Shown here one piece after another: positions 13,537-41,860 of a DNA stretch of 64,000 nt. This stretch comes from Boletus sp. NGJ. Its lineage: Eukaryota; Basidiomycota; Agaricomycetes; Boletales; Boletaceae. How positions within the stretch are numbered: position 1 is the first letter of the stretch; each line of letters opens with the position of its first letter. The position numbers and the translations under genes were made by a program. The stretch is from the NCBI GenBank assembly GCA_019096195.1, contig JAGTXK010000257.1, positions 62,001 through 126,000 on the forward strand, given 5' to 3'. The notes under the pieces were generated by a model, which ran no database searches, was not told the DNA's origin, and saw only the letters and a list, made by a program, of their open reading frames with translations.

Positions 13537-13539
13537 GAA

Positions 13540-14173: not shown

Positions 14174-14534
14174 TGAAAGGAAAAGAGCCTCAATATCTCA
14201 AAGGGTGCGAAGTGCACTATCTAAGAGAGAGAAGAGGAATTCCAAAGCTAGCTAATACAGGTGTTGCTATGCTACTTATATACTATCTACTCGTGCGCAC
14301 AGACCATGGTTTAGGGCCGGTATGGAATGTGCTAGAAGGTTCCGTATGACATATGGTGACGTAGTGGGGTCTAGGTTGTTCTATGAGTATAGGGTTGTGG
14401 CATAACCTGACTAATGTGTGACGTAGGGTCTAGACGTTAGGTCTAGGTATAAGGTAACTACGTAAGTCGTTCGTGGGGTCATTAAGTGTTGGCTAACTTC
14501 GTAAATAAATACAAAAAACGTCCAATTCATTTCA
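14174..14534 (-). repeat. Gypsy-1 5' LTR
   Basis: Direct repeat of 7367-7727, 361 bp, TG...CA. It contains a TATATAA box and the self-priming complement at 14238-14250. Confidence 0.93.
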
Positions 14535-15158: not shown

Positions 15159-15370
15159 CAGTGGCTCAAAAAAGTGTCCCAATATTTGACTATTTTGCAA
15201 AGACTTGACATTTGCAAAAGAACCAAAAGGCATTAGCCCTAACCCTTGCTGGGCCATTGATAGCCCTAATCCTTGCCCTGAAGATGAGCCCTTAGTCATG
15301 TGAGTTGGTTGTCATGGTACTGAGTTATAGCCATATTAAAAGGATATGTCATCGAGACACTTATTTGACC
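15159..15370 (+). repeat. Left TIR of Tc1-2
   Basis: Starts CAGTGGCTCAAAAAAG; inverted partner at about 16545-16730. An insertion-like repeat of about 30 bp near 15235-15270 makes it longer than the right copy. Confidence 0.85.
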
Positions 15371-15509
15371 CTGATATTATCAACTATCATTTAGTAAATA
15401 ACATAAGGTTCTGATGGATGCTGTGCTTCAACCCTGTCTGATTATGTCACTTACATAACTCCAAATGGTATAAAGAGCAGAGATACCATTTAGCCAACCC
15501 TATTTCATT

Positions 15510-16526
15510 ATGAAATCCACTCCCTCCTCTGCTAGAGTTAATATTCTTTTTCCCTCTGAATCTGGCCTTTCTACTAGGCAAATATCATTCCAAATTGGTC
15601 TGGGAAAGTCTACTGTGGCCAGGGTTATCAAGGAGCTCCACCCAGGCAAGGAAAACATCAAATTAGGATGTCCTTCTAAACTTTCTTCTACTGATAAAAG
15701 GAGAATTGTCTCTAGTATTACCTCTGGCAAAGTTGAAAATGCTGTCCAGGCTATCCATCTCATCAATTCTGCTCTCTCTTCTCCTGTCTCTGCTCAAACT
15801 GTTAGGAATGTTCTCAAGTCTGCATCTCTCAAGGCTGTAGTCAAGAAAAAGAAGCCACTCTTGTCTGTGAGGCATAGGCAACATAGGCTAGCCTTTGCTC
15901 TCAAGCACCAACATTGGACTGTGGAGGACTGGACTAGGGTTATATGGTCAGATGAAACCAAGATCAACAGGATTGGGTCAGATGGAAGGAAGTATGTATG
16001 GAAATTGGCAGGAAAGTCTTTGCAAGACAAGGAAGTTCAGGGAACAGTAAAGTTTGGAGGAGGTTCCTTGATGGTTTGGGGATGCATGAGTTGGAGTGGA
16101 GTGGGGATTCTTGCAGAGGTTGAAGGGAGGATGAATGCTGAGCAGTATGTCTCCATTTTGGAGGATTATCTGCTTCCTTCCATGGAAAATTCTGAAATTC
16201 CTGAAAAGAGCATTATCTTTCAACAAGATAATGACCCCAACCACACCTCTAAAAGAGCCAAGGAGTGGCTGGAATCTCAAGGAATCAAGCTTCTTGACTG
16301 GCCAGCACAATCTCCAGACCTTAATCCCATTGAACATCTCTGGCAAATCCTCAAAAAAAAACTCAATAGCTATACAACACCACCAAAAGGAGTATGGGAG
16401 CTTTGGGAGAGAATTGAAGTGGAGTGGGAAAAGATAGAGGTTGAGGAGTGTCAAGGATTGATAGAGAGTATGCCTAGAAGACTAGAGGCAGTGATAAAAG
16501 CAAAGGGAGGGCATACAAAGTACTAA
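15510..16526 (+). CDS. Tc1/mariner DD34E transposase, full length
   Basis: A 338-residue transposase that would bind and cleave the element's TIRs in the nucleus. Start chosen at the only early Met, about 350 bp inside the left end. Domains: first helix-turn-helix about 18-45 (STRQISFQIGLGKSTVARVI), GRPS-like GCPSKLSS linker at 53-60, second helix-turn-helix about 62-105, basic run KKKK at 112-115, catalytic core from about 140. The DDE triad reads D148 (VIWSDETK), D240 (FQQDND) and E275 (LNPIEHLW), with exactly 34 residues between the last two. The length is that usual for Tc1 enzymes. No stop or frameshift is present, so it may be active; this is inference. It is closely related in layout to the broken copy at 992-2013. 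Confidence 0.95.
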   Translation: MKSTPSSARVNILFPSESGLSTRQISFQIGLGKSTVARVIKELHPGKENIKLGCPSKLSSTDKRRIVSSITSGKVENAVQAIHLINSALSSPVSAQTVRNVLKSASLKAVVKKKKPLLSVRHRQHRLAFALKHQHWTVEDWTRVIWSDETKINRIGSDGRKYVWKLAGKSLQDKEVQGTVKFGGGSLMVWGCMSWSGVGILAEVEGRMNAEQYVSILEDYLLPSMENSEIPEKSIIFQQDNDPNHTSKRAKEWLESQGIKLLDWPAQSPDLNPIEHLWQILKKKLNSYTTPPKGVWELWERIEVEWEKIEVEECQGLIESMPRRLEAVIKAKGGHTKY

Positions 16527-16544
16527 ATTGAAGAATAGAAATGT

Positions 16545-16730
16545 TGTTCAAAAAAGTGTCCCAATGACATATCACTTTAATATGCCTATATCTCAGTGCC
16601 ATAACAACCAAATTATATAACTAAGGGCTCATCTTCAGGGCAAGGATTAGGGCTAATATCTTTTGGTTCTTTTGCAAATGTCAAGTCTTTGCAAAATAGT
16701 CAAACATTGGGACACTTTTTTGAGCCACTG
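16545..16730 (-). repeat. Right TIR of Tc1-2
   Basis: Inverted copy of the left TIR, ending TTTTTTGAGCCACTG next to the TA target. Confidence 0.85.
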
Positions 16731-16787
16731 TATAATCAAACAGGGTTGATTATACAGAAATGTGTCACATTATTACCCAGTGTAACA
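16731..16787 (+). repeat. Gypsy-2 5' LTR, third piece
   Basis: Final 57 bp of the 5' LTR, ending CAGTGTAACA, matching CAGCATAACA at the end of the 3' LTR. Confidence 0.85.
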
Positions 16788-16789
16788 AA

Positions 16790-16801
16790 AGATCTAGGTT
16801 A
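16790..16801 (+). other. Gypsy-2 primer-binding site (self-complementary)
   Basis: AGATCTAGGTTA, two bases after the LTR end, is the exact reverse complement of LTR positions 14755-14766, downstream of a TATA box. This is consistent with Tf1-type self-priming. Confidence 0.7.
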
Positions 16802-17255
16802 TAAATTGCCAAAGACTATTCAGTCTAGCAACTCCCACCACTATTCAGAGAAATAGAACAGTGTATCAGAGGATAGGCCCTCGCTCTACACACTGTGCAA
16901 AATCAATCTTGCACAACTCCTTGGAGAAGATCAAGAAGAAGAAGCGACATCATCACAGGCTTCTACTCCTATCTCTGATATGTCTTCATCAAGAAGGATC
17001 CCAGGGTCATCTTTCTATTACAATGACCCTCCCGCCTGCACATTTCCAGAACAGTCCAGACGACCAGATTTTCCAGGTGGTCTCCACTCTCGAACCTCAA
17101 CCTCATTGGACACTCCCATCCCACTGTCCGCATTCCAACTGGTTCCCATTGGAGTAGATTCCCCTGACTCTCTCTTCAACTAAAGCGGAAGATCTAGTCC
17201 TAATCCCAACTCAGGAAATCCCCAGCCCGAAGAAGACACAGATGATGAAGATGAT

Positions 17256-18212
17256 ATGGTTGAAATTAAAGCTGCCCTGCCTGAGGAGTTCTCAGGAGAG
17301 ACCAACAATGCCAAGAGATGGCTCATGGCTATGGAAGGATGCTTCCATCTAGGAGAAGCAGAGAAGTTCACTAAGGAAGCCAAGCAGCTTATCCTATTGA
17401 ACAGGATGTCCAAGGGAAGAGGAAAAGCATCCGCAGAAGCCTGGCTGACCAGGCTGCTCAATGACACTGTGCCACATGCAGACAAAACCTATAATGAGAT
17501 CAAAAAAGCCTTCACCCTCACCTTCACCCCCCACAACACCAGCAATCTGGCCATGGCAGAACTCGGATCTCTCCAACAAGACAAACAGGATCCAAAGGGA
17601 TTTGACAAATTCATTTCCCAGTTCTCATTGCTGGTAGTTCACTCTGAGCTACAGAAATTCTGCTCTATTCTGGAATTCTTCCTCAGGGGGATCGATCCAC
17701 AAATTGCTCGACAACTAGTCAACAGCGAGACCTTCCAAAAGGCCAAGAAGATGGAAGAAGTCTACAAAGTAGCTGCCAACATCCATGGGGCATGGCAACA
17801 GATCAAAGGAATACAGAAAGGACCCTTTGTGTCCTTTGGAAGAGGAAGAGGAAACCACCACAATCCAAACACTATGGATGTGGACTGGATCACCTTATCT
17901 CCTATTGAGCATGCCAGGTGGATGAGAGAGCGAAGATGCTTCATCTGCAACAAAATTGGGTGTAGTACCAGGAAACACCTAGGATACCAGCTGATTAGAA
18001 GAGAGGAGTATAGAAAACCTCAGGAAATGCACACAAGAGTGGTCGTCACCAGGGAAACGCCACAGGATCCCCTCAACAAATATCTCACAGAAGTCTTCAG
18101 AAACAATGGACGAGACAAAGTTCTCAGAACGCTCCAGACAGCCTTCAACACGGGGCTGGATAAGCAAGGCCTCATTTTAGAACAAGTGCAAGAAGCTGCC
18201 GCAATGGAATAG
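17256..18212 (+). pseudogene. Gypsy-2 gag region (fossil)
   Basis: Capsid-type segment typical of Ty3/gypsy gag: KRWLMAMEGCFHLG, SAEAWLTRLLN, GFDKFISQFSLL, followed by a Cys/His-containing basic tail (ERRCFICNKIGC). It would package the element RNA. An unknown Ser/Pro-rich stretch precedes it (about 16,860-17,180). Confidence 0.8.
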
Positions 18213-18319
18213 GAAGAGAACATTAACTCTCTTGCCCTTGGACCCACTATGCAAATCCCCATTTCTCCCATAGATGAAACATCTTTTTAGGTGGAAGAGG
18301 TGTACCAACATCACCCTCT

Positions 18320-20240
18320 TCCTATATGATTGCATCTGTATTTATTTCTAGATTGAAGAGTAATTCTATTCACATTCCTCTCTCAATCTGGAAGCAGGAT
18401 GGCAAAATTGTTGAAACAAAAGCCTTAATCGGCAGTGGAGTAACAGGATGCTTCATTTCAAGACAAGCGGTGGAGAAAATGAGACTACCCACATGGAAGC
18501 TGGACAACCCGATTTGAGCTTGGAATGTTGATGGAATCCAAAACCAGTCTAGGACCATCAAGGAAAGGACCAACATTGTGTTGGACTATGGAGGCATATG
18601 AGAACAGTAGGATCTCTATGTCCTCAACTGTGGCAAGGATGAAGTCATTTTAGGACTTCCATGGCTCAGGGCAGTGAACTCTGACATCAACTGGATGGAA
18701 GGATGGGTAACAATAGTGCCGTCTTTCTACCAGTGCACTCAAGGCGATCCACCAGGAACACTGGAATAGCAATACCTACTATGGTATCTGGAGCATGACA
18801 AAAAGGAGTATGTGCAAGACGGACTCTATGAAACCTTTCATCATTTGGATGCTCTTACAATGGGCCAAGTTTTTCAACACACATGGGGATGTACCAGAGT
18901 TTGTCATCAAAAGGACCACTCTGTCTACCAAAATTGCCCAACAGACGCCAAAGGCCAAGATTACATTGCCAGATGCATTTAAAGAATATGCAGATGTCTT
19001 CATGGAGAAGACAATCACCAAGCTACCTCTCTTAAGGCAATATGACCACACCATCGAGTTAAAGGACTTGTTTGTTCCAAAACAAGCCAAGGCATACCCT
19101 CTCAACCTGCTGGAACAACAAGCATGCCGGGAATTTATCAACGAACATCTAAAAACTAGGAAGATATCCCCATCAAAATCTCCCCAAGCCGCTCCTTTCT
19201 TCTTTGTACAGAAGAAAGATGGGAAGCTCCACCCATGCCAAGACTACTGATATCTCAACAGCCACACAATCAAGAATGTTTATCCCCTCCCCTTAATTTC
19301 TGACCTTCTGGATAAATTAAAGGGATCATCAATCTTCACCAAATTTGATGTACGATGGAGCTACAACAACGTCTTGATCAAACCCGAAGATTGGTGGAAG
19401 GCGGCTTTCCTCACCCCATTCAGATTATTCAAACCAAATGTCATGTTCTTTGGAATGTGTAATTCCCCCACAACATTTCAGATGTTTATGGATGATCTCT
19501 TTGGAGATTATATCGCAGAGGGATGGTTGGTGACCTACATGGACAATCTGTTGATTCATTCTTCAGATCAGATAACTCACGACGAGAGGACACAGAAGGT
19601 CCTAGAACACTTCTGACAGTATGAAATGTACCTCAAATTGGAGAAGTGCACCTTCTCAGCCAAAGAAGTTGAATATCTTGGGATGATTGTAGGGAAGGAT
19701 GGAGTCCAGATGGACCCAGTCAAGCTCAATGCCATCAAGCAATGGAAACCCCCAGTGAATGTGAAGAACATATGGTCCTTCATTGGGTTCTGTAATTTTT
19801 ACAGGAAATTCATCCCCTCTTTCTCTGACATCGCACGTCCTTTGCTGGACCTCACAAAGCAAATGATGGCTTGGTCCTGGGGATCACTTCAAGAAAAATC
19901 ATTCAGAACCATGCAGGCGGCATTCACCAAGAAACCCGTCCTTGCCTTCCCTGATACTTCAAAATCCTTCACCCTCATGACAGACACCTCACTCACGGCA
20001 TCAGGGGCGATACTCATGCAGAACAACAACAACGGAGACATGCAACCATGTGGTTACCTCTCCAAAACTTTCTCTCCTGCTGAGAGAAACTATGATATTT
20101 ATGACAGGGAACTACTGGCTATCATACAAGGTTTGAAAGAGTGGCAGCAATACCTCCTTGGATCCCCCCATCCCATAACAGTGTTAACCAACCACAAGAA
20201 CTTGACATTCTTCAAGGAACCCTATCAATTATCCAGATGA
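18320..20240 (+). pseudogene. Gypsy-2 protease, reverse transcriptase and RNase H region (fossil)
   Basis: A protease-like segment at about 18,400-18,780 (GRSNGxx equivalent not clear) is followed by reverse transcriptase motifs [36 protein letters not shown], a YMDN box, then RNase H with LMTDTSLTASGA and YDRELLAII. Order is that of Ty3/gypsy pol. Broken. Confidence 0.85.
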
Positions 20241-23221: not shown

Positions 23222-24130
23222 TGTTACAGTTACAGAAGGGGGTACATCTTTTCCCCTTCCCTCACCCCCCATAGGACTATGGAACGACTTGTTCTTCAAC
23301 TCGGACCAGGGATTCCCCTGCAACACCAACTCAGACATTGCCCCATCAGAAACTCCCTTTCTAGGAAGTTACCTGTTTGGTTTGGACACCACCTTTCTAT
23401 TTCATTGATACATGCCTTTCATCTCTTTCTGATTCGATCATAGACATTGCCTTCTCGGCTGTGTTCTCTCACACATAGCCTAGTATTCCAAATCTCCATT
23501 TGACTAATGCCTAGATCCTTTATGATAATCTTCAGTCTGTGATTTATAATTATCATATATGATAGAAAGCCTGCCCTAGATGGGCATGGTCTATATAAAG
23601 AGACACTGGCTCTTCATATAACTCTAACCTAGATCTACATAACTTCCCGTGTAATCTACCAGCTTCTCCCACTATCAGTTCCACTTCACCTCAGAAGCCT
23701 CACTCCTGCTCTGGAGGTGATCGCCCTTGTGCTCATGATCATCTTCCTTATCACTGCACACTTGTGTGGCCTTGTTGCCATCCGAACCCACTTCTAAAGC
23801 TTTGGCAACTCCAATGACCAACAGAGGTTGGTCCGTGCAAGCCTGGGACTCTGCCACCGACACTAGGCCATGTAAGCCCAGAGATCTAGTTTCTGGCCTC
23901 CACATTCCGGTCTGCCCTTCCTTCTCGGATGATTGCACCACCATGGTAAATCCAAGACTCTGCCATTGGTCGTAGCGGTAATGAGAGGACTCTATGTAAA
24001 GCTAGCAGCTGGTCCCCAGTCAGAGGAATCATTGGGCCTCTGGAGGTATTTTCCCCTCAAGTCCTGCTAGTCCTATAATCAAATAGGGTTGATTATATGC
24101 GAACATGTCACATTGTTACCCAGCATAACA
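23222..24130 (+). repeat. Gypsy-2 3' LTR
   Basis: 909-bp LTR, TG...CA, uninterrupted. It preserves the empty target sites of gypsy-1 and of Tc1-2 and carries a TATATAAAG box near 23,593 with the self-priming complement after it. Confidence 0.92.
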
Positions 24131-25030
24131 GAATGCCATGAAGCACATGGATAAAGACCTGCCTAGGGTGAAGAAGGGCATCATGGATAAAGACCTGCCT
24201 AGGGTGAAGAAGGGCATCATGGACCAGGCCTATCGCATTCCAGAACCAGCCATGCTCATCCCAGGACAGACTTCCAAACACTGCCAACTATTTATGACAA
24301 ACTGGTTGGCAATTTGCCTGCTCTGGATCAGTCACCTCAACCATGACCCTCCTGCTCAATTTCCTGTCCCCCAGTTGTGGAGGGAGGTACTCCATAAAGT
24401 GCCATTCAAGGATGAACTCGCTGCTGCACCTGAAAGCACTATGGGTAACAAAACTGCCAAGGGTCACAAGATGGCTGTGCTGGAGATCTTCGGTGACATC
24501 ATGGTGGCCATGATGCAGGGCTCCACTTTTGCACCCTCAGAAACTGTGGAATGGCACAGCAAGTATATTCCAATCACATCCCTTACCAATTCTCCACCCC
24601 ATCTCATCAGAGCAATCTTGTGGGAGATTTATGAGATTGGCTAGCACTACAAGCTGTGTGCTGTCAATCAAGCCCTTCACCTTCATTTGTGGGCAGAACA
24701 TCACACTGAATGTCACAGCTTCATATATGCCATCTTCCCTGATAGTTCAGGTCTGATGTTGTGGTCTGAGCCTTTGTTATTCAAGCATGGAGATCTCAGG
24801 CTGATGGACTTCTTTGCTGACAATGTCTATGTCCCGCACAGTTTCTATATGCTTCTCTCCACCTGGCCTGGCCCCCACCCATCATTTTAATGAACAATCC
24901 AAGCAAGCACAGGCCTTTGAGATTATGAGTCAGACTTGCCAATTCTATGTACAGACTTTCTTTGATCATTTCAGCCATCCCCCTCTACTCCCCCATCACT
25001 TTCCCCTCAAGTACCATGAATAGTGTCAAT
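24131..25030 (+). pseudogene. Right part of the accessory ORF interrupted by gypsy-2
   Basis: Continues the unit cut at 7167. Translation shows RIPEPAMLIPGQ, MTNWLAICLLW, LWREVL, then AILWEIYEIG and, after a stop, LYAVNQALHLHL-like and MLLSTWPGPHPS segments in the order of a remembered agaricomycete hypothetical protein (W-rich, PEPALL...NWL...IxWELYEL). Function unknown. A 36-bp tandem duplication at 24147-24218 repeats MDKDLPRVKKGI twice. Several stops. Confidence 0.4.
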
Positions 25031-26439: not shown

Positions 26440-29400
26440 ATTTATAGTGTCGAATCATCCATGGTTTTGGTTGAGGCTACTTGGTCTCATCAATCACAAG
26501 GATTAAATAATCAAATGTGATGAGACACACTTGATCTGGGTCGGACTCATGCTTCAACTGGAGCAATAGATTTGCCGCATTTTCAACATCTTTTGTTGTT
26601 GGAACTGCCTGTGACTGATTGCAGTCAGTATTATAGTTTGCATGTTTCCATCCAAATTTCTTGAAAAGGATGATATTTGTTCAATAAATGTTGTCTAGCT
26701 CATCATCTTCAGCTTGGGGGTACTGCAATTCGCCCACATTGCTCGTCTTCAACATGCATTTGTATCCATTAGCAAGTGTTGTACCCAAGTCCTGTGTGAT
26801 CAAAGTGGCAGCAACATAAGGAACAAGGAAAAATCTGAAGAACTGATTATGTGAGAGTGGTCTGAAGCCGTCATCTGAAATGTTGTTCATAGGGAAAAGG
26901 TCAATCAATATGTGCATGATGACCAATGTGCCTTTGATTCCATAGCTGGAGTAGGTCTTGAGTGCACAGCATGAACACAAGTATAGCTTAGAAAGATACA
27001 TACTATCCTACTCAAGTGCCTTTCAAGGCCTCACTGTCATCTGCAAGCCTTGAAGGTGTTATGGCGACAAACTGTTTAAGTGTCAAATGGTCTAACTCCA
27101 GGTCAGCTTCAAAGCTGCCCCAAACACACAACATCTGGTTTTGGTACTCTGAATCAACTATTTGTCACTTTAGTTGATCAACCATCGTCACAATTCAACC
27201 AGGAATTTCTCTGAAGTTGACTGATGTGACTGGCCAGCCACAACCCAATGCATTTTCAACCATTGCCAGCCTTCTGATATTGATCCTCAGCAGTGAGCAG
27301 ACCTCACCAGCCAAATGTCATGCTGCCTTGCGCCCTTTTGCTCTGCAAATCATTTTGTACAAATCAATTGCATAAGTGAGCTCAACTGAACAATCCCTAG
27401 CCACTGGGATCTTGTCCTGGCAATAGACTCCTGAACAATAGTGTAGATCTCCACTGTCCAACTCATCTTTGCTGGTCATAAGGCCAGGGATATGATATTT
27501 CTCCTTATCAGAAACCTTTGAATGTAATACAAGATATGAATCATAGCACGAGACAATAATCAGAAGCTCATATTTTTGTTACTAACAATTTCTGTAGGCT
27601 TGACAAGTTCATTTTCTTTTGCCTTATTCTTGCCCTTGTTTGAGCTTGAGCAAGATGCCTAAGATACAGAAAATTATGAGTTGAGTAAGAAAATATAATA
27701 GAGAGAATGAACATCTGAACCTTTGTAACATGTTTCCTTAGATTGTCGCCAGTTTGACTTGGAGTTGAGGCTATATTCACTTTAAGGGACACTGATATGG
27801 GACCAGGTTTACTAGAGTCGCTGCTGATGAAGTGCTGTTCAAATTGGCTAACACCAATCTTGTATTTCTTCAATCGTTATATTGCTATCTCTTTGGTGTC
27901 TCGTTCTAAGTCACCATCATGCCTGCACTTCTCAACTTGTGGGGCTGTGGCCATATTGACTATCTTCTGACTCAGAGCCTTGATATTTGTGGAGAATGTA
28001 TTCTCATAGTGACATACCTTGTTCTGGTCCTTGGTTCTGGCTGATATCCTAATCTAGTTTAGTCTTCTCAATGTCTTTTCAAGTTATCAATCAAGTAGAT
28101 TTGATATCATTATCTTTCTTTCTGATTGCTGTTCATTCTGATCAGCCTCTGAGTCAGACTTGAATGTGTCCTCAGGGATGACATGTGCCTTCTTGACCTT
28201 CATCTTCATAGGGATTTCATTCTAGTGTAGTTTTGTTAGTGTATTTCTCACTATCCAGCAAGGATATCAATACTGTCTTTTGTTTTTTGATCAGTTGCTC
28301 TTTGTTGGCTACAGTATCTGAGTTGGACTTGGACATGTTCTTAGGGATGATGTGTGCCTTCTTGACCCTCATCTTCATAGGAACCTCATTCTAGTGTAGT
28401 TTTGTTAGCATAGGATTTGGACATGTCCTTAGGGATCACAATACATGCCTTCTTCTGAACCCTTGCTTTGGCAGTGATGACCGACCACTTTTCATTGCTG
28501 TCATTGGTTCTTCAAGCATTCCAGACCAAGCACTTTTTGTCAGCATCTGAGTCAGATATGTCCTTTGGGCTGCAAACCATTTTCCAGGACTTACATATTC
28601 TAGTGTAATTTCATTAGAGTGGTTACTAGATATTAAACAAATAGATTTTGATACCATTTTTCATTCCTTGATTGCTGGTTCCTCATCATTATCAACCTCT
28701 GAGTTAGATGTGTCCTCATGGGCATGAGCCCTCTTTTGGGTCTTTTCAGCAGCAGATATTCTTATCCCTTTGATGGGAATCTTACTCTAGTTTAGTTGCA
28801 TTAGTGTATTCATAAGTTATTGAATGAATAGGACTGATACCATTGTCTTCTTTCAGGCTAAGATGGCTTTCGTGGAAATAGATGATCACACCCTGCCAGT
28901 GTTGCCATTGATCTCCAAATTAGACTTGTCATCATCAGCCTCTGAATCAGACTCACCATTATCAGCCTCTAAACCAGACTTGTGATTATCAGTCTCTGAG
29001 TCAAACTCGTCATGAGGGCTGTGGGCCCTCTTCCAAGCCTTTGCTTATGCAGTAATCTTAATCTAGATAAGAACTTTTGTAATTCCAACTTGGAAATAAT
29101 ATGAAAATCAACAATGTACCACTATTTCCCTTTCTCTGGCTGATTGATTCCATAGAAACTGGGCCAATATATCATGGACTGGCCAGCTGCTTTCATGTTT
29201 CATCAAAATGGGAAATTCAGTCTGGACCTGCAATAAAGTAAATGTTAGTCACACATATATGCACTTCACAGCAAGGTAAATCAGTCTACTTGCCTGTCTA
29301 ATGAGCTTTTCTGCCAGCAACTTGTCTCTTTGACAAGAGAGTGGACAGCTGATGTTGAGAAACCTTGATGCAAGTTTGTGGACATAGTCCTTGTCCAGGG

Positions 29401-29608
29401 AGTAATGTTAGTGCATGAACACAATGACTGAGACACTTGGATGTAGCACCTACACAGATGAGATTATACTTGTACTTCTGGTGTGTTAGGCCCATGGCAT
29501 CTATAATTGAGTAACCATTGTTCCATCCAGGTTGTCCTTTCAGCCTAGGAATCATTTTTCCAGCTTGGAGATTATGATGCACATCCTTCTTGCTGTGTTT
29601 CTTCGCTC
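26440..29608 (-). pseudogene. Minus-strand gene of unknown function with a tandem exon-intron array, truncated by gypsy-3
   Basis: Not recognised as a named family. Its coding pieces (minus strand) include RAKKHSKKDVHHN with LKGQPGWNNGYSIID (29,450-29,600), FPILMKHESSWPVHDILA and QFLWNQSARERE (29,140-29,230), a repeated exon array (28,054-29,064), and near the 3' end FRPLSHNQFFRFFLVPYV (about 26,820-26,880) and ANLLLQLKHESDPDQVC (about 26,510-26,570). The last pieces resemble agaricomycete hypothetical proteins. The 5' end was cut off by gypsy-3; the missing first exon may lie in the inverted segment at about 38,000-38,212. It stands back to back with the CACTA Tnp2 gene once that inversion is undone, so it may be the second gene of that transposon (inference). 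Confidence 0.45.
28054..29064 (-). repeat. Tandem array of exon+intron modules
   Basis: Five intervals of about 168, 169, 209, 187 and 276 bp, each starting (minus strand) at a CTAG acceptor preceded by a branch-like CTAAC or CTAATG and ACTACACTAG-type sequence. Each exon starts with a basic segment (for example VPMKMRVKKAHIIP, IPMKMKVKKAHVIP, KIPIKGIRIS) and ends in a Ser/Asp/Glu-rich segment (SDSEAD, SNSEVDNDEE). The introns begin GTATCA where intact; some donors are altered. Confidence 0.65.
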
Positions 29609-30195
29609 TGTCATATCCTGTGCAACTTGACAAGTCCAACTCTGGACCTCTGTTCATAACTCCAGCACGTTCCCCCTTGGAGTATGCTCTCATATCCTTG
29701 GATTTGTAACTCACCCCACATAGTATTCCTACTTCCTCATTCATACATAAAGTTATGTCCTACTCATCTGTCTTAGTCCTGCTTTGTAGCTGTCTCCAAT
29801 CCAGTGTCTGTCTCACTTAGGAGCACTGCTCTGGCAAGGTCCCATCTCTGTTCCTAATTACTCAGCTACTACTTACTCATTACACCTTACAAACTCTGTT
29901 AGTAATCTCATTTCCAATTATATATAAACCTTTGCTACTACTCTTGTAAAATTAGTTTGAATATCAACTCTGAACACCACTCCTGTCCTCCATCCAAATC
30001 TCAATGACTCACTTTGATCCTCTGCTGGACTTGACATTTGACCATGTCGAGTCCAAACCTCTGATCTTACTATGTCCTTGAAATCCAGGACATCAGACTC
30101 AAGCAAGGGTGCACCACATAAGGTGAAGCCAAGTCCCAACACCCTCAAGTAACTCCGATCCTTTAGAGTTGCATCAGAGTTGTCCATTCTTAACA
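29609..30195 (+). repeat. Gypsy-3 5' LTR
   Basis: 587 bp, starts TGTCATATCCTG and ends CTTAACA. TATATAAA box near 29,921; 33 bp later AGTTTGAATAT (29954-29964). Confidence 0.92.
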
Positions 30196-30208
30196 GTATA
30201 TTTGAACT
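30196..30208 (+). other. Gypsy-3 primer-binding site (self-complementary)
   Basis: GTATATTTGAACT abuts the 5' LTR and pairs with LTR positions 29954-29964 over eleven bases if two G-U pairs are allowed. The pattern is the same as in gypsy-1 and gypsy-2. Confidence 0.55.
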
Positions 30209-30399
30209 CCCATTTGCAACAAGTCTCTTACATTATGGCTACATGCACCACTAGATCCCAGACTCATGCCATCAGTGTAAACTCCTCTGCATCCCCACAA
30301 TACAACCTGTTGAGCACATTCGGTAGCAGTCAACAAAGCCCAGAACTTGTTGACCAGTTCCAAAGCTTCTCCACTCAATGAACCTCCACCTCCGCCTCA

Positions 30400-31611
30400 C
30401 AGTCACAACCTCTCCCAGAGTCTCCTACTCCAGGAGCACACATCATTGAGCTACCTACCGACGATGACTCCATCACCTCCCTGCTTGCAAGCCAGCACTC
30501 GAATCAAAGAGTGCAGGCTGCCCTCTTCCCAAATGATGACATCCTGGACTTCCCCAGAGATGACCCATCAGATGATGATCCTAACTTCCCCAATGACAAT
30601 GTTCCCTCTAACTCTGACAGTGAGCATGTCCCACAAGACACTCTCACACTGCTTGCTGATGCCATCAAAGGCCTCACTCGCTTCACATGTTGTCCCTCTG
30701 ACCACACCCCACACACTAAGATCTGGGAACCAGACCAGTTTGATGGGACTGAACCCCACAAACTCTGAGTCTTCCTGGTTCAGTGCAAATTCAACTTCCA
30801 AGACCACCCGAAAGCTCTCAGGATGGACTGCACCAAAGTCACCTTTGTGCAGTCCTACCTAAAGGGCATGGCTCTGGAGTGGCTCGAACCAGACCTCCTC
30901 CAGATGGAAGATCCCACTTTCTGTCCACTTTGGATGGACGACTTTAAAGAGTTTGTCCTAGAACTCCAGATCAACTTCAGTCCACATGACCCTGTCAGAG
31001 ATGCAGAGCACCAGCTTGACCACTTGTTGATGAAGGATACTCAACACATCAACAAGTATGTGGTTGAGTTCAACTGGATCGCTTCGCAAGTCTGCAGTTA
31101 CAGAGAAGGTGCCCTCCAACCCCACTTTAACAACAGTCTGCTGGACAGCATCAAGGATGAGATATCATGGGTTGGGAAACCCCCAATGCTCTCCAAACTC
31201 CGAAGCCTCACACACACTATTGACACATGCTATTGGGAGCACAAGTCGAAAGTCAGCAGATAGACTAAAGCATTGACCCCATCCTCCACTCTGAAACCAT
31301 CCACCCTCACTGTATCATCCTCTCTGTGCCCCTCTGGCAGTGCCAAGGACTCCAAGGAGTCCAAAGGCAAAGGAGCTACCACCTCTGCCCATCCAAAGCT
31401 GGACTTGTTGTCCAAATTAGAGAAAGATGGCAAGCTCACCATGGATGAGAGAAAGTGCAGATTCAACAACAAGCTCTGCATGTTCTGTGGCCAAGCCAGT
31501 CACATGGCAAAGGACTGTCTGAAGTTGACCTCCAGCATATCCAAGGGTCATGCCACAACCACAACTCCAGAAACCAAACTGGAGGTCTCCACCTTGGAGG
31601 CAAAAAAATAA
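30400..31611 (+). pseudogene. Gypsy-3 gag region with zinc knuckle (fossil)
   Basis: Acidic N-terminus, then a capsid-type segment (VTFVQSYLKGMALEWLEP, INKYVVEFNWIASQV) and a CX2CX4HX4C zinc knuckle (CMFCGQASHMAKDC, about 31,477-31,518). Confidence 0.85.
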
Positions 31612-31614
31612 TCT

Positions 31615-33650
31615 GTGACCTCCATGACTCCACACAGACTGGAGGTTGTGTTGAACCCACATGTGCAGCTAAGGAGATTCGCCTCAACATGTCCACTCTT
31701 TCTAACCCAAATCCCTCATGCCCTCCATCTCCTTAGTCTCCTACCCAATTCTGCCCTTCTCTGCACTTGTAAATTCAGGCTCCTCAGATTGTTTCATAGA
31801 TACTTCTTTCATAAATAAAAATGAACTTTCAACCTACCCCATCCCTCCACTCCATCTCCATCTCTTTGACAGAACTACCAATAGCACGATCACCTGAGCT
31901 ATCAACCTCTCAGTCTGCTTCGCAACCAGTGACATCACCCTGATGACTTTCTACATCACTCCACTGGATTCCGCCTGCTCCATTGTCCTAGGACACAACT
32001 GGCTCACTTGCCACAATCTGTTAATTGATTGAATCACGAGCAGTATCACATTCTGTTCATCCAAGCAGTGTTTGCTAGCAACCCCAAGCTCCCCTCTGCA
32101 GCCTCTGGAATCACTTCCTCTGGCTGACACCCCACCCGATCCACTGCATTTCTCTGACTACAAAGCTCTGCTCATAGCACTCATTAGTGCACTAGCATTC
32201 ACACTAGCCTGTCACCTTGAGGGCTCCATTCAATTTAGCTTGCAACTCCGTCCCCAGGAGAGTGATCTCTGCTCCGCTACCATCACTTCCCCAGAACCAG
32301 TCGATCTTTCCAGTGTTCCTCCAGAATATCATGATTTCCCCAATGTCTTTAGCAAGAGCAAAGCTTTCTGGCTTGCTCCATGCTGGAAACACAATCTGAA
32401 GATCGATCTGGAGGACAGAGCCTCTCCTCCCTTGGGAACTACCTACTCTCTTTCCACCTCTGAACTCGGCTCTCTCCATGCTTTCCTCGATGAGCACCTA
32501 GCCATGGGCTTCATCAGACCCTCTTTCTCCACCCATGCCGCCCCAGTCCTCTTTGTTCACAAGAAGGATGGTTCACTCCGCCTTTGCGTCAACTTCCAAG
32601 GACTCAATAAGATCACAAAGAAAGACTGCTACCCACTCCCCCATATCTCCAACCTCCTAGATGCTCCAACCTGCACAAAGATTTACACCAAGATTGATCT
32701 CTGGCATGCCTACCATTTGGTTTGCATTGCTGACGGAGATGAATGGAAAATGTCTTTCCAAATGTGCTATGGCTTTTATGAGTGGCTAGTAATGCCTTTC
32801 AGTCTTATCAACACCCCCACAGCTTTCCAATGGTTCGTCAACACCATTTTCACAGATCTTCTAGATGTTAGCATGATCGTCTACCTGGATGACATCCTGA
32901 TCTTCTCTGCAGATAAAACTGCTCACAGAGAACATATCCAGGAAGTCCTCCGATGACTCTGCAAAACCTGAGAAATGTGAATGGTCCACCGACACTACGT
33001 AGTACCTCAGCTATATCATCACGCCCTCCAGCCTTACGATGTCTTTGGACAAAGTCAAAGCCATGCAGAACTGGCTGAAACCTCGTAAAGTCAAGGATAT
33101 CCAATCCTTCCTCGGATTTGCCAACTTCTACTGGTGTTTCATCACCAATTACTCCAACATCGTCATTCCACTAACCCAGTTGACCTGCAAGGGTATTCCT
33201 TGGGTCTTCGGAGATGACTGCCAATCCATCTTCCTTTCACTAAAGGAAGCCTTCACCACTGCTCCCATCCTCACCCATTGAGCTTCTGATGCTCCGATAA
33301 TCATAGAAACTGATGCCTCTAACTATGCCATTGCCAGAATTCTTTCCATCTGTTGTCCAGATGAAGAACTCTGGCCTGTTGCCTTCTTTTCACAGATGCT
33401 CACCACTCTGGAGCTCAACTACAACACTCATGATAAGGAGCTCCTTGCCATCCACGAGTCTTTCCAGACTTGGCAGCACTATCTCAAAGGCTCCAGAACC
33501 CCAATTGATGTCATCACCAACCACAAGAACCTGGAATACTTCACCACCTCGAAACTCCTGACCCACTGGCAAGCCCAGTGGTTGGAGTTCCTCTTCCAAT
33601 TCCACATGATCATCCACTTTCGCCCTGAATGACTTGGCACGAAACCTGAT
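31615..33650 (+). pseudogene. Gypsy-3 protease, reverse transcriptase and RNase H region (fossil)
   Basis: Protease-like region at 31,700-32,060 (SILVLGHNWL-type sequence), then reverse transcriptase (PVLFVHKKDGSLRLCV, KIDLWHAYHLV, YLDDILIFS) and RNase H (IETDASNYAI, THDKELLAI, TNHKNLEYF). Broken. Confidence 0.87.
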
Positions 33651-33839
33651 GCCCTTACTAGATGCTGGGATGTCTATCCCAAAGAGGGGGATAAGGACTA
33701 CACTCACATCAATCCACATAATTTCTGCCCCATCTTTACACAGGAACAGCTCACTTCTTCTCTCTGCACTACTTATCTTGCAGCTCCAGTACTTCGGGCT
33801 AGCACCCTGTTTGATATAGAGCAACTCCACAGTGACATC

Positions 33840-35286
33840 CTATCCACACTCCCTTCCAACCCACTCACCAAACTACATATGTCCTCTCCCAATCCAGACT
33901 CACGCTGGTCAGTTGACGAAGATGGCTTCCTCCATCTCAACAAGTGCATCTATGTCCCTGATGCCAATGACCTCCAACTCCGAGTCCTCCAGTACAAACA
34001 CGACCATCCCCTCTCCAGACATTTTAGCCAAAATTGGACATTGGAACTTGTACACCATAAATACACCTGGCCAAGGATAAGGATGTTTGTAAAAGAATAT
34101 GTCTCCTCCTGCACCACTTGTGCCTGCACAAAGGTTCCAAGACACTGACCCTATGGGTTGTTGAAACAACTCCCCATCCTGGAGAAGCCATGGAATTCCA
34201 TCTCTATGGATTTCATCAAGCAACTCCCCTTGTCCTCCGGATTTACTGCTATCCTCATCATCATAGACTGATTATCCAAATAGTACATCTTCATCCTGAC
34301 ATATGACATGGTAACATCCCTGGACCTTGGCAAAACTATTCCTACTCCATGTCTTTTCTAAGCACAGAGTTCCCTCTCACATAACCTCTGACCGAGGTTC
34401 AGAATTCATCTCTCATTTCTTCCGCTCGCTTGGAAAAGCTCTCAACATCCGCCTCCACTTCACCTCCGGTTACCACCCCGAAGGAGACGGTCAGACAGAA
34501 CAGATGAACCAGATACTCAAACAGTACCTCCGCATATATTGCAACTACCAGCAAGACAACTGGTCCAAACTCCTTCCATTAGCAGAGTTCACATACAACA
34601 ACACTCCAAGTGCTACTACCAGTGTCTCCCCGTTCTTCACCAATAAAGGCTACCATCCCAACATTACAGTACATCCCAAGCATGACCTCACCTCTGCTAA
34701 AGCCTGCGAATATTCCATAGACCTCAATTCCCTCCATGACTACCTCCATGAAGAAATGGCTGCCGCCCAAAAGCATTATCAAGGAACCACAGATGCTAGG
34801 CAATCTCTGGCACTGGACTCCAAAGTCAGCGTCCTGGTCTTCGTAAAAGCCAAGTACTTCCGCTCCACTAGGCCTTCAAAGAAACTCTCCAAGAAGAACC
34901 TAGGGCCCTATCCAATCATCACGCAGGCAGGCTCTCACTCCTTCACACTCTGACTCCCCGAGTCAATGAAGTTTGTTCATCCAGTCTTTCATGTCTCACA
35001 ATTAGAATTCTCCATACCCAACACCATACCTAACCGGGTACAATCTCTGCCACCTCCAGTTAAAGTAGATGGAGAACCAGAGTATGAAGTTTCAGAGACC
35101 CTCAACTCAAAGATAGACCAACATTTTTGGAACTGCAAACTCCTATACCTTGTCCGTTGGTCAGGATACAAAGGAACAGATGAAGAAACCTCATGGTTTC
35201 TAGCCACCAAACTCAGCCATGCTTCCGAACTTGTCCATGACTATCACACTTGCTACCTGGACAAACCCAGACCTCACTCCGCATAA
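33840..35286 (+). pseudogene. Gypsy-3 integrase and chromodomain (fossil)
   Basis: Integrase motifs CTTCACTK-type zinc region, ITSDRGSEFISHFF, YHPEGDGQTEQMNQ, LAEFTYNN, followed by the chromodomain at about 35,080-35,240 (EPEYEVSETLNSK, LLYLVRWSGYKG, TSWFLATKLSHA). Broken. Confidence 0.88.
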
Positions 35287-35318
35287 TCGGACACAAACTC
35301 CATTGGATGAAGAAAATA

Positions 35319-36118
35319 CTAAACTTCTTCCTCTACTCCCTCCTCTTTGCTCTCCTCCCCATTCTCCTCAATTTCTTCTGTGGCCAACCCCACCAACTCC
35401 TTCTCTGCCTTTTCCTTTTCCCCTTCCCCTATCTTCTCCGAGCCCAACTCCCCACTCCCATGCACCTCCTCCACTTTTAGGTCGACCAGGCACTCTAGCA
35501 GTACATTTTGCTGCTTCAAATGCCTGTTCTGGGACCTCAGGGCATTCCGAATCTCCCAAAGAATCTCCATTAGCCCCAATAGCACCCCTGGTGCTGCTTT
35601 GTCTGTGTTGGAGCCACTAGGTCCTGCCTTGCCAGTCTCCACCCTCCACTTTTTCTTCCACTTCTCTGGCTGCTCCTTGCCGGGCTGCTCACACTTCACT
35701 TTTGCGTCACAACACTCAATGCATGACTTTAACTTCCCAGGGTTGAGCATGCACTCGAGGCCCCGGTTGTCACAGCAAATGCACAACTGCTCCACTGCCT
35801 TCCTCTTCTTCCTCTGTTTGATGCTTTGATGCACCCTAATCTCCTCCACCTGTGAAGTCTGGTTAGTTTTGTCGAACTCTGGTTAAAGCGACTCACCCTG
35901 TGTACAGCCTCCTCCTCGGCCTCATGGTGCACCTTCTCTTCCTCCTCATACGCCTTCTGCTCAGCCTCCTCATGTGCCCTCCTCTCCGCCTCCTCTTTCC
36001 GGGCCCATGCTCGTCTCTGCTGTTCAGCATACTTGGTTGCACTGACCTCCTCATTGTCATCCTCGTTCTCTGTGATACACTTGTCAGACCACTCCTTGAT
36101 GTTGTCGAGGTCAGACAT
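35319..36118 (-). CDS. Spliced antisense gene inside gypsy-3, cysteine-cluster and coiled-coil protein
   Basis: Lies on the strand opposite to gypsy-3 between its chromodomain and 3' LTR. Two exons (36118-35897 and 35849-35319) join in phase across a 47-nt intron with GTGAGT donor, CTAAC branch site and TTCACAG acceptor, giving 250 residues with no break. Start MSDLDNIKEWSDKC; residues about 25-72 form a charged, Ala/Glu/Arg-rich helix. Next come a basic QRKKRK and a cysteine cluster CX2CX6CX9CX2CX6C (CICCDNRGLEC, then CIECCDAKVKC), suggestive of but not identical to a Zn2Cys6 DNA-binding domain, a Leu-rich stretch and an acidic C-terminal tail. Similar proteins exist as remembered hypothetical genes in agaricomycetes. 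Function unknown; perhaps regulates the element or was captured. Confidence 0.65.
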
Positions 36119-36261
36119 GGCAGGGAATAAGGGTAATGCAGAATTGGCCAGGGCACACCCTCACCCTTTGTATCCTTTTTTTCAACTCCGATTTTTTCCT
36201 CCACTTCAATTTTCCCCCACTCCACATTGTCTCTTACCTAGGCCTTCAGGGGTTCAGGCCT

Positions 36262-36274
36262 AAGAGGGGGATAC
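36262..36274 (+). other. Gypsy-3 polypurine tract
   Basis: AAGAGGGGGATAC immediately before the 3' LTR. Confidence 0.65.
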
Positions 36275-36860
36275 TGTCATATCCTGTGCAACTCAACAAG
36301 TCCAACTCTGGACCTTGTCCATAACTCTGGTGTGTTCCCCCTCAGAGTACACACTCATACCCTTGGACTTGTAACTCACCCCACATAGTATCCCTACTTC
36401 CTCATTCAAACATAAAGTTATGTCCTACTCATCTGTCTTAGTCCTGCTTTGTAGCTGTCTCCAATCCAGTGTCTGTCTCACTTAAGAGCACCACTCCAGC
36501 AAGGTCCCAACTCTGTTTCTAATTACTCAGCTACTACTTACTCATTACACCTTACAAACTCCATTAGTAATCTCATTTTTGATCATATATAAACCTTCAC
36601 TACTACTCTTGTAAAGTTAGTTTGAATATCAACTCTGAACACCACTCCTGTCCTCTGTCCAAGTCTCAATGACTCACTCTGATCCTCTGCTTGACTTGAC
36701 GTTTGACCATGTCGAGTCCAAACCTCTGATCTTATTACGTCCTCGAAATCCAGGACATCAAACTTGAGCAAGGGTGCATCACATAAGGTGAAGCCAAGTT
36801 CCAACACTCTCAAGTAACTCCAGTCCTTTGGAGTTGCATCAGAGTTGTCCATTCTTAACA
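36275..36860 (+). repeat. Gypsy-3 3' LTR
   Basis: Starts TGTCATATCCTG, ends CTTAACA. Its stretch about 36,420-36,800 is virtually identical to the inverted solo LTR at 38213-38799 while differing more from its own 5' LTR. Confidence 0.9.
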
Positions 36861-38212
36861 CTGAGATGGATTGTCCAACAGAGTCAGATGGCTGAATGTC
36901 ATCTTCCCCACCTGCCTCAGCAACATACCAGTTGTGTAGAAGTCTTCCTGTATGGCTGAGGACCTTTCCACAGGTTGGGTGATACCAACAGCATTTTTTT
37001 TTTCTTATTTCTTGGACTTGGTGGCATAGTGTATGGTTTGTGACATGCTCAGGCCACAAGTCACATGCATGACCCAGTGCCACTGTTATGCTGGGTAACA
37101 ATGTGACATGTTCCTAAGTAATCAACCTGTTTGATTACTGGACTAGCAGGACTTGAGGGGAAAATACCTCCTGAGGCCCAATGGTTCCTCAGACTGGGGA
37201 CCGACTGCTAGCTTTACATAGAGTGTCCTTGGTTGCCTCTATGACCAATGGCAGAGTCTTAGATTTACCACAGTGGCGCAATCCTCCGAGAAGGAAGGGC
37301 AGACTGGATGTGGAGGCTAGCAACTATATTGCTGGGCTTGCACAAACCAACCTCTGTTGGTTGTTGGAGTTGCCGAAGCTTTAGAAGCAGGTTCGGACAG
37401 CAACGAGGCCACACAAGTGCACAGTGATGAGGAAGACAATCACGAGCACAAGGGCAATCACCTCCAGAGCAGGAGCGAGGCTTCTGAGGTGAAGTGGAAC
37501 TGGTAGCAGGAGAAGCTGGTAGATTATATGGGAAGTTATGTAGATCTAGGTTAGAGTTATATGAAGGGCCAGTGTCCCTATATATAGGCCCTGCCCATCT
37601 AGGGCAGGCTTCATATCATATATGGTAATCATAAGTCGCAGACAGAAGATTACCATAGTGGATCAAGGCATCAGTCAAATGGTAGGTTGGGATACTAGGC
37701 TGTGCATGAGAAACCACAGCTGAGGAGGCAATGTCTATGATCAGATCAAAAGAGGTGAAATGCATGTATCAGTGGAATAGGGAGGCAGTGTCCAAACCAA
37801 ACAGGTAACTTTCTAGAAAGGGAGTTCCTGATGGGGCAATGCCTGAGTTGGTGTCATGGAGGAATCCCTGGGGAATCCCTGGTCTGAGTTGAAGAACAAG
37901 TTGTCCCATAGTCCTATGGGGGGTGAAGGGAGAGGAAAAGATATACCCTCTCCTGTGACCGTAAGAGCCACAAGTCACATGCATGTCACGTGCTTCCTTG
38001 CACATTCCTCTCTGACTTTCTCAAATTCTTATTGGCATTCAATCAGTCCCTCATCATGGTAAGGTCAAAGGAAAAGGAAAAAATCTCTAGGCTTGACAAG
38101 CTTGGTCAGTCACTGACTGACCTTCATGGGAAAATTGACTCCATTAATTGTAGGTGAAACTATACATTTGAAGCACTGACATAGTATATGTGTATCAGGC
38201 AAAGAGTGAGCA
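36861..38212. other. Inverted segment between two oppositely oriented gypsy-3 LTRs
   Basis: Holds, reversed relative to its surroundings, the N-terminal piece of the CACTA Tnp2 gene (36,866-37,080, minus strand: WYHPTCGKVLSHTGRLLHNW), a solo gypsy-2 LTR, and at 37,990-38,212 a possible first exon (MVRSKEKEKISRLDKL) with a GTAGGT...CAG intron. Turning it around restores both flanking target duplications. Confidence 0.75.
37084..37966 (-). repeat. Solo LTR of the gypsy-2 family
   Basis: Reverse-orientation copy of the 909-bp gypsy-2 LTR, beginning TGTTATGCTGGG and ending GTAAGA (a degraded CA end), flanked by a perfect 5-bp target duplication GCCAC (37079-37083 and 37967-37971). No internal region is attached, so it arose by LTR-LTR recombination. 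Confidence 0.88.
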
Positions 38213-38799
38213 TGTTAAGAATGGACAACTCTGATGCAACTCCAAAGGACTGGAGTTACTTGAGGGTGTTAGGACTTGGCTTCACCTTATGTGATGCACC
38301 CTTGCTCAAGTTTGATGTCCTGGATTTCGAGGACGTAATAAGATCAGAGGTTTGGACTCGACATGGTCAAACGTCAAGTCAAGCAGAGGATCAGAGTGAG
38401 TCATTGAGACTTGGACAGAGGACAGGAGTGGTGTTCAGAGTTGATATTCAAACTAACTTTACAAGAGTAGTAGTGAAGGTTTATATATGATCAAAAATGA
38501 GATTACTAATGGAGTTTGTAAGGTGTAATGAGTAAGTAGTAGCTGAGTAATTAGAAACAGAGTTGGGACCTTGCTGGAGTGGTGCTCTTAAGTGAGACAG
38601 ACACTGGATTGGAGACAGCTACAAAGCAGGACTAAGACAGATGAGTAGGACATAACTTTATGTATGAATGAGGAAGTAGGGATACTATGTGGGGTGAGTT
38701 ACAAGTCCAAGGATATGAGAGCATACTCCAAGGGGGAACATGCCAGAGTTATGGACAGATGTCCAGAGTTGGACTTGTTGAGTTGCATGGGATATAACA
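38213..38799 (-). repeat. Solo LTR of the gypsy-3 family
   Basis: Reverse-orientation, about 587 bp, TG...CA. Its right flank is CTCAG (38800-38804). Its left flank does not match, but the reverse complement of the far breakpoint (36861-36865) reads CTCAG, which supports the inversion. Confidence 0.9.
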
Positions 38800-41700
38800 C
38801 TCAGATGCAGAGAGCACCAATGCAATCATCCCAGCACACTCTGACTCAGGCATGTTTGAGCAATACCACAGTACATCTCTCTCTCAACATATAGCTTCCC
38901 CTCTAACCTACAATAATACAGACTTGAATGTACTATGTGCAACACCAAAGGCCCATACTCAGAAGCAGAGGACTGTGATCATGTATCAGATGGATTGGTT
39001 TCAACCCATTCTGGACCCAAAACAGCATCTGATGCCAGTCCAGAGGACTCAAATTGGACATGGACAGAGGCTGACAGAGGGTACCAGTCAGAGCCTGAGG
39101 ATGAGCTTTTGGCAGATGGAGAGATACTCAACAAGCTCAAAGAGATAACAATGAGCTATGAAGAGGAGCTATATGTGATCTATATGCATCTATGTCATCC
39201 ATTTTACACATCGTGACTGATTGGACCATAACATAGACAATGATATACTTTCTGAAGAAGATTGCATTAACATTCAAGCATTCAATTTACTTGTTATGAG
39301 TAAAATTTCATGACAAGCCTTCATGCAGCTCCAGTTTGCCTTCCATGATAAACTCCAGATTGCATCTGAATACACCATTTTTCATCACATGCACATTCTT
39401 TCAGGAGTCAACCCCGTTACCTATGATTGTTGCCCCAACTCTTGTGTCACATATACCAAGAAATTCATCTATTATCAAGCATGCCCATATTGCAACGAGC
39501 CACGTTTCAAGGATGGAAAGGCCCATCAGAGCTTTGTTTACTTTCCATTGATTCACTGTCTACAGGGCTACTTTCGGAGCATTGAGATGATTGAAAAAAT
39601 GTCCTATTGATCCCGCTATCAGTCACAACCTGGGAAGATAGCAGATGTATTTGATGGAGCTCACTACCAACGACTACTATGGCACCGGGTCATTGTTGAT
39701 GGTGTCAAGCTCAGTCATCGCCATTTTTCAGGATCCGATGATGTCACATTGTCCCTTTGCACAGATAGCTATCTACTATTCAAGCAATGCTGGAAGGGAC
39801 CTTCAGCGACTCCAATCCTCATTCAAAACTATAATCTCTATCCCCAAATACACACACATCTTTGCAATCTCATTTGTGTTGGGATCATTCCTGGTCCCAA
39901 ACAACCAAAAGATCTCTTGTCCTTCCTATCACCTCTTGATGATGAAGCCGCCAAACTTGCATATGGAGTCAAGATATTTCATGCTGTACAACAGACAACA
40001 TTTGATCTCCATGCCTACTTTTTGTTCAAGCTTGGAGACATAGTGGCTGTTGAGAAGTTTCTCAACATCAAAGGTCACAATGCTATATACCCATGCCATT
40101 CTTGCGCCATACAAGCTGTCTGTGGAACAGTGAGCAAAACATATTATGTTCCCCTTGACCCTCCAAAGAACATTCATAACACCAGTGTGCAAAGTTGGGA
40201 CCCAGCCACTCTGCCACTTCAGAAACACAAGGATTTTGTCGAGACTGCTACTATGATACATACAGCTACAACAAAGGCTGCAAAGGAACAGATTGTGAAG
40301 GAAACAGGAAACAAGGGCTTGCCTGCAATGTCTCGTGTTCAATCTCTGGACTATGCTCAGGCAGTACCATGGGAATGATTCCATCTTCTACTTGAAAACA
40401 TCATTCCTAACCTCATTTACTTTTGGACTGGGAACTTCAAGGGCCTTGATGTAGGCATGGAAGAGTTCGAGATTGAACCTCATATCTGGGAAGAAGTTGG
40501 ATGAGAGACTGCAGCAGTTGTTCAAGACATGCCAACTACCTTTGTACGCATTCTCAGCAACATTGCACATGATCGATCACTCTTCACAGCCAAATCATGG
40601 GGGTTTTGGAGGAACAAGTACTACAAACATATATGCAAGCTGGGAGACATCATGAAGGTTATGTTGCGATTTCAGATCGCTGTTACACAAGTTGCGGAAA
40701 TCAAGCAACATCTGATTGATTGGGTTCGGAGATACGAAAGGTATGTATAGCTACAAAGTGTATAGCTACAAAGTGGTACAACATGTTGAGGCTAAACCTG
40801 TTCCCAGGTACTATTACCAGTACCATGAAGAGCGCCTGTCCACTTGTACATTGACAATCCATGGCCTACTCCATCTTGCAGACGGAATCCAGGAATGTGG
40901 CCCAATTTGGATGACATGAACATTCTACATCGAGAGGTTTTGCAGTATGCTTTAGCAGAGCCTTCAATCTCATGTGCAACCTTGAAGTACATAACTTGAA
41001 TAAATTGTTACTCCATGCGATCTATTTGGAACAACTTGGTGTGTGCTACAACCTGCAAGATGAACTTCAATACATCAGCGACCAAATCAACAATGGTCCA
41101 ATCGGTCACAAACAAGTCCTAGATAACTGTAGGTATCCTATGTTTCATTTCCACAAGCTCATGCTGAGTTTTCTAGATCCTGATTATGTTTTTCACCCGC
41201 CATACAAGGCCATCAAGTGCCTTGAACATGAGCTATACATAAAAATTACAAAGTATCTCGCACAAGTTCTTAAAAAGTGTAGTTCCAAGGTCAAGCACCA
41301 CCTATCTCTTGCCTCGATGTCTGGATATTCTGCCAGCAAGCTCAGAATACAGAATGATGGAGACAATTTTTGAACAAAACATGCTTCTCAGAGGTCTGGT
41401 AATCTAGAAAGAAGAAACTATTATGTTCAGGTATGTACATTCACTTTACATACATCCTATCTGATGACAAAATGGGTACAGTACAGGATAACGTACCAGG
41501 ACCACACCCAGATAGTGAAGCACCTGGGCTACAGTGACCTCGAGAAAATCTTGATCATCACCTTACCTGACAAGTCATTCCTTACTACTGACTTCAGTGA
41601 GCGCACGATTGCCCTTGCACTTGCTACACTGTGGGACACCAATGGTAGGGATGCAACTGAGGAGAACATATATATGACAGAGTGAAGGGCAAGTGTCATA

Positions 41701-41860
41701 ATGGATGTTCGAAGTCTTCAAGCTGTCATTGGCCTGGTTCAAACACGAGGAAAATGGGGGATCATAGATAGAACTGGAGAGAGCATTATGGCAACATTCA
41801 GAGATGTTGAGATGGAGACTGGACTCACTGTGAAAAGTAAAAACACTATTACAGAATGTC
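38800..41860 (+). pseudogene. Decayed CACTA-type transposase (Tnp2 family)
   Basis: Transposase remnant of the CACTA (EnSpm) superfamily. Motifs in family order: YTKKFIYYQACPYCNEPRF (zinc-like, about 39,455-39,510), VYFPLIHCLQGYFRS, then LIQNYNLYPQIHTHLCNLI with IIPGPKQPKD (39,820-39,910), LGDIVAVEKFLNIKGHN with YPCHSC (40,040-40,105), TYYVPLDPP, LTIHGLLHLADGIQ (40,850-40,890) and a C-terminal IDRTGESIMATF (41,770-41,800). Several stops, frame changes and probable short introns (for example GTATGT near 40,741). Its N-terminal part lies in the inverted segment at 36,866-37,080. The solo gypsy-3 LTR inserted between the two. No clear CACTA terminal repeats were found. Confidence 0.75.

Follow-up and report, generated by a model that had tools for sequence, protein, structure and literature searches.

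A segment of 1.35 kb was probably flipped by ectopic homologous recombination between two opposite LTRs of the gypsy-3 family, one at each end of it; we put this reading at a probability of about 0.82. The segment lies within the window, which is the whole stretch of 64,000 nucleotides analysed here (contig C1, positions 62001-126000, of an assembly of 32.8 Mb in 141 contigs). A sequence-only reading of this DNA had claimed that one inversion explains three independent features of the locus, and this view gained support from the target duplications, the orientation of paralogous genes, their spacing, and a tract of 390 identical columns in the LTR alignment. Inversion by ectopic recombination between inverted copies is already known as a mechanism, and the locus adds another example of it.

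The region combines parts of a tnp2-type element with several LTR insertions (Table 1). tnp2 elements (EnSpm/CACTA-like) have CACTA-type terminal inverted repeats and a short target duplication. The tnp2 body was recognized by a match to Pfam Transposase_21 at 39611-40375 (E 2.3e-13). With both LTRs included, gypsy-3 extends over 29609-36860. Its LTR family is numerous, with at least 40 matches in the assembly, the three of the window included (40 of 182 candidates were scored).

Table 1. Features at the proposed inversion, in positions of the window.
Feature	Position	Strand	Remarks
Part of LEFT gene (second, divergent gene of the tnp2 element), split by gypsy-3	29100..29608	-	Translated matches to paralogues
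gypsy-3 5' LTR (587 bp)	29609..30195	+	Left target duplication CGCTC at 29604-29608
gypsy-3 internal region	30196..36274	+	Split into many open stretches
gypsy-3 3' LTR (586 bp), left boundary of the proposed inverted segment	36275..36860	+	
Proposed inverted segment (1352 bp)	36861..38212	.	Starts with CTGAG (36861-36865), ends with GAGCA (38208-38212)
Putative 5' piece of the tnp2 gene, on the strand opposite its body	36861..37083	-	Named from position and paralogues
Nested solo-LTR-like repeat of another family (883 bp)	37084..37966	+	Many copies in the genome; target duplication GCCAC (37079-37083 / 37967-37971)
Spacer, may hold the start of the divergent LEFT gene	37972..38207	+	Weak matches to paralogues
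Solo LTR of the gypsy-3 family, bounding the proposed inverted segment on the right	38213..38799	-	Right target duplication CTCAG at 38800-38804
tnp2 gene body (Transposase_21), interrupted by stops	38805..41814	+	Pfam match and translated matches to paralogues

The target duplications at the boundaries provide the first line of evidence. As claimed before, neither insertion has matching flanks at present: gypsy-3 stands between CGCTC and CTGAG (1/5 matches) and the solo LTR between GAGCA and CTCAG (0/5). When 36861-38212 is turned round, the solo LTR gains the perfect CTCAG duplication foreseen in the sequence-only reading (5/5) and gypsy-3 gains CGCTC / TGCTC (4/5), where the sole mismatch is, also as foreseen, a C against a T at a CpG. 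Aligning the four flanks, which that reading had put forward as a check, thus gave 9 matches in 10 over both insertions after reversal vs. 1 in 10 as the sequence stands. Replacing both inner flanks by random 5-mers from the window reached nine or more matches in a fraction of 2.2e-5 of 2 million draws. The flipped segment holds a control of its own, since the nested repeat retains GCCAC at both ends, as expected if the flip touched the boundary insertions only.

As another control, nine further LTR pairs whose spacing suits full elements of the gypsy-3 family were checked at their outer flanks, and seven presented 4/5 matches or better: five with 5/5 (contigs C91, C101, C31, C37, and C82) and two with 4/5 (C59 and C118). 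The remaining two were unmatched, with 2/5 in C81 –a putative single element– and 1/5 in C102. An inversion by two non-homologous breaks or by aberrant transposition, to which the LTR positions would be incidental, is hardly credible: at each breakpoint sits an LTR of one family, oriented as recombination requires, and the target duplications have been swapped. We found no point in its support.

The second line of evidence is the gene order in tnp2 paralogues. Relatives of the tnp2 body occur on nine other contigs; their DNA is 64-72% identical to it, with the exception of a single 41-bp match (85%). We took one 10-kb locus from each of these contigs of the same genome as the paralogue set. 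Each piece was compared on its own by tblastn, using stop-to-stop open stretches as queries. With the tnp2 body as reference, the 36861-37083 piece had the opposite of its present orientation in six of the nine paralogues (E values: L065, 5e-11; L061, 9e-8; L058, 9e-5; L057, 2e-4; L060, 6e-4; L064, 1e-3), and in the other three (L059, L062, and L063) it had no match below E 0.05. The present orientation was found below E 0.05 in none of the nine, the best value being 0.060 in L065, and the best E among 90 shuffled loci was 0.007 for this piece. Judged by paralogues only, and in six of nine, this supports 36861-38212 being inverted relative to an ancestral order.

The LEFT gene (29100-29608) matched six of the nine paralogues, with a best E per locus from 2e-7 to 3e-10. 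In five of the six paralogues with the oppositely oriented piece (L057, L060, L061, L064, and L065, not L058) it was on the far side and in the predicted orientation. The two-gene layout of the tnp2 element itself varies, as L058 (C31:162000-171900) carries the LEFT gene downstream of the tnp2 body and turned the other way. The spacer at 37965-38212 was matched, weakly, by two of four paralogues (L065, E 0.014; L060, E 0.036); they sit at the predicted place and in the predicted orientation, but shuffled loci also reach 0.014 and the matches alone are not significant.

Spacing agrees with the un-flipped order. With the segment turned back, the distance from the 36861-37083 piece to the tnp2 body would be 648-711 bp vs. 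599-763 bp in six paralogues, and that from the LEFT gene to the same piece would be 290-708 bp vs. 289-657 bp in five paralogues. As the sequence stands, 1671-1797 bp separate the piece from the body if the solo LTR is excluded and the nested repeat counted; subtracting this repeat and one copy of its duplication (888 bp) gives 783-909 bp. By position arithmetic, the frame of the 5' piece would also continue into that of the tnp2 body after un-flipping. We give frame continuity little weight because it has a chance of one in three and the paralogue spacing is not always a multiple of three.

The sequence-only reading had named the stretch at 36,866-37,080 a Tnp2 N-terminal piece that rejoins the body on reversal. 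The rejoining is supported by the orientation in six of nine paralogues and by the spacing. The piece near 36866-37080 had no Pfam match, so its name rests on position and paralogues.

The third line of evidence comes from the LTRs themselves. The gypsy-3 3' LTR and the solo LTR were correctly described as inverted copies, and they are 98% identical over 545 nt. Their full alignment has 17 differences in 587 columns, unevenly placed: 14 in columns 1-136 (10%), none in columns 137-526, and three in columns 527-587. Over columns 137-526, identity of the 3' LTR is 90.0-90.8% with six other members of the family and 92.6% with the gypsy-3 5' LTR. Zero differences in 390 columns at 9% divergence has p ~1e-16 if sites are taken as independent, and this improbability indicates that the 3' LTR and the solo LTR swapped sequence recently relative to the decay of the family. 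The 390 columns read as a recombination tract, sharp-edged between otherwise divergent copies.

The tract would also be explained if the middle segment had always been oriented as it is now and gene conversion had homogenised the LTRs without crossover. A tail-to-tail LTR pair on contig C82 lends something to this idea: it is 96.4% alike over the same columns, yet its bounded element has CACAC on both sides. However, conversion by itself leaves both the exchanged duplications and the orientation in six of nine paralogues unaccounted for. We rejected gene conversion without inversion on the flanks and the paralogue order, and consider it very improbable. Recombination with crossover accounts for these features too, and we infer that one crossover gave both the inversion and the LTR homogenisation.

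The ends of the two LTRs showed no clean chimera. At columns 4, 11, 12, 40, and 529 the gypsy-3 5' LTR shares the base of the 3' LTR and not that of the solo LTR; the reverse holds for ten sites in 42-136 and for 527 and 535. The ends available for this test are short, the signal is mixed, and CpG decay makes the 5' LTR a poor reference. In identity, the 5' LTR is 91.1% to the 3' LTR, 92.3% to the solo LTR, and 88.4-91.0% to six others. Among nine aligned LTR copies, the 3' LTR and the solo LTR are 97.1% alike, the C82 pair 94.4%, and the remaining pairs 87.6-92.3%. Since other pairs are this much alike, a 5' LTR at 91.1% to its 3' LTR is no reliable reference, and we dropped it as a guide to the native LTR end.

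The identity tract bears as well on the one serious rival that remains, an error of assembly. The chromosome would then be in the ancestral order, and the assembler would have reversed the 1.35 kb between the LTRs, with breakpoints that could fall in the 390-bp perfect inverted repeat. The ancestral order accounts equally well for flanks, paralogues, and spacing, so that such a flip would mimic every feature except the tract; for this reason the word "proven", used earlier of the inversion, is slightly too strong, even if the inversion itself is supported. An assembly flip alone leaves 390 identical columns beside a difference of ~10% (columns 1-136), for which a real sequence exchange is needed. 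Moreover, repeats of 587 bp around 1.35 kb would presumably be bridged by long reads or paired clones. We therefore regard an assembly flip as unlikely, and infer that the inversion occurred in the organism.

The proposed course of events would start with a tnp2-type (EnSpm/CACTA-like) element that carried two divergent genes. It would have received three or more insertions of LTR elements: gypsy-3 within one of the genes or beside it, an oppositely oriented solo LTR of the gypsy-3 family within the tnp2 gene, and an LTR-like repeat of another family between these two. Ectopic recombination would then have taken place between the 3' LTR of gypsy-3 and the solo LTR, which lay 1.35 kb from each other in a tail-to-tail arrangement. 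The crossover would reverse the segment between them and swap the inner target duplications, while accompanying conversion would make at least 390 bp of both LTRs identical. The flip would part the 5' portion of the tnp2 gene from its body.

A comparable case is the transposon Galileo at inversion 2z3 of Drosophila buzzatii, described with oppositely oriented copies at the breakpoints and exchanged target site duplications, and attributed to ectopic recombination (PMC2775673). Both cases present opposite copies, one per breakpoint, exchanged duplications, and ectopic recombination as the explanation. They differ in that Galileo is a DNA transposon, its inversion is chromosomal, and the report describes chimeric copies (PMC2775673), whereas here the repeats are LTRs, the segment measures 1.35 kb, and chimerism is putative. 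On the human Y chromosome, ectopic gene conversion among LTRs is reported (PMC4921805). Sequence is exchanged between non-allelic LTR copies there (PMC4921805) as in our case, but the tract found here accompanies a probable flip.

The duplications at the boundaries, the order in the paralogues, an inserted repeat as internal control, and the recombination tract can all be read in this one locus, and as a sequence record of a small LTR-mediated inversion it is unusually complete. It also illustrates that neighbouring LTR insertions with unmatched target duplications can expose an inversion from one genome, with no relative for comparison. Flips of this sort, mediated by LTRs, split genes; here it would be a neighbouring transposase gene, tnp2.

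Including the pair discussed so far (C1), three neighbouring inverted LTR pairs were noticed among the 40 scored copies, the others being on C82 and C102. The C82 pair (331046-331632 / 332834-333420; L006, L066) consists of two 3'-type LTRs, tail to tail and 1.2 kb apart. The two LTRs are 94.4% identical as a whole (96.4% in columns 137-526), vs. ~88-92% for the other copies compared. We rejected the pair as a second inversion because the only element with both ends bounded retains its duplication (CACAC / CACAC), so that no flip is needed. The segment between the C82 LTRs contains short repeats, e.g., GATTAG and runs of TACTATGA.

The C102 pair (9369-9955 and 10392-18701; L067-L070, L086, L087) is a head-to-head inverted pair. 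Its solo LTR, the end of which was placed one base past the match, is 97% identical to the LTR of the adjoining element over 301 bases; the best copy elsewhere reaches 93%. The flanks of the element, GATGT / AAAAC, are unmatched, and AAAAC is the reverse complement of the inner flank of the solo LTR, GTTTT. With the segment reversed, the element would regain AAAAC / AAAAC, but the solo LTR would still lack a duplication (CTTGC vs. ACATC). A second LTR-mediated inversion is possible at C102, where the element flank fits and the solo LTR flanks do not.

Over the parts compared, the three inverted pairs on C1, C82, and C102 are 97, 94, and 97% alike vs. about 88-93% for other copies. This likeness and the half-matching duplication swap at C102 are the grounds for a broader idea, which we find rather doubtful: inverted LTR neighbours in this genome might recombine readily, flipping and homogenising repeatedly, and so act as small reversible switches, possibly with both orientations in one strain.

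At the level of base composition, CpG observed/expected is 0.13-0.17 in the LTRs at 29609-30195, 36275-36860, and 38213-38799 vs. 0.60 in the window. Differences between the gypsy-3 5' and 3' LTRs are transitions in 47 of 52 cases, and 29 of the 52 are CG/TG/CA interchanges. CpG depletion together with TG/CA interchanges among LTR copies looks like methylation-type CpG decay. CpG-targeted decay of repeats is reported in basidiomycetes (PMC4352252); the gypsy-3 LTR differences, mainly transitions, resemble it, and the mismatch in the gypsy-3 duplication is of the same kind. Unlike the inversion, this decay is a mutation process on repeats and not a rearrangement (PMC4352252).

Finally, the ends of the nested repeat at 37084-37966 were placed by eye against three other copies; its last five bases are TAAGA, and TAACA in the three compared copies. 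A second copy of this repeat family is found at 23224-24131, with 83% identity. A 19-bp perfect direct repeat, GCCACAAGTCACATGCATG, occurs at 37053-37071 and 37967-37985, one copy a little upstream of the nested repeat and the other directly downstream, and is longer than the 5-bp duplication of the nested repeat.
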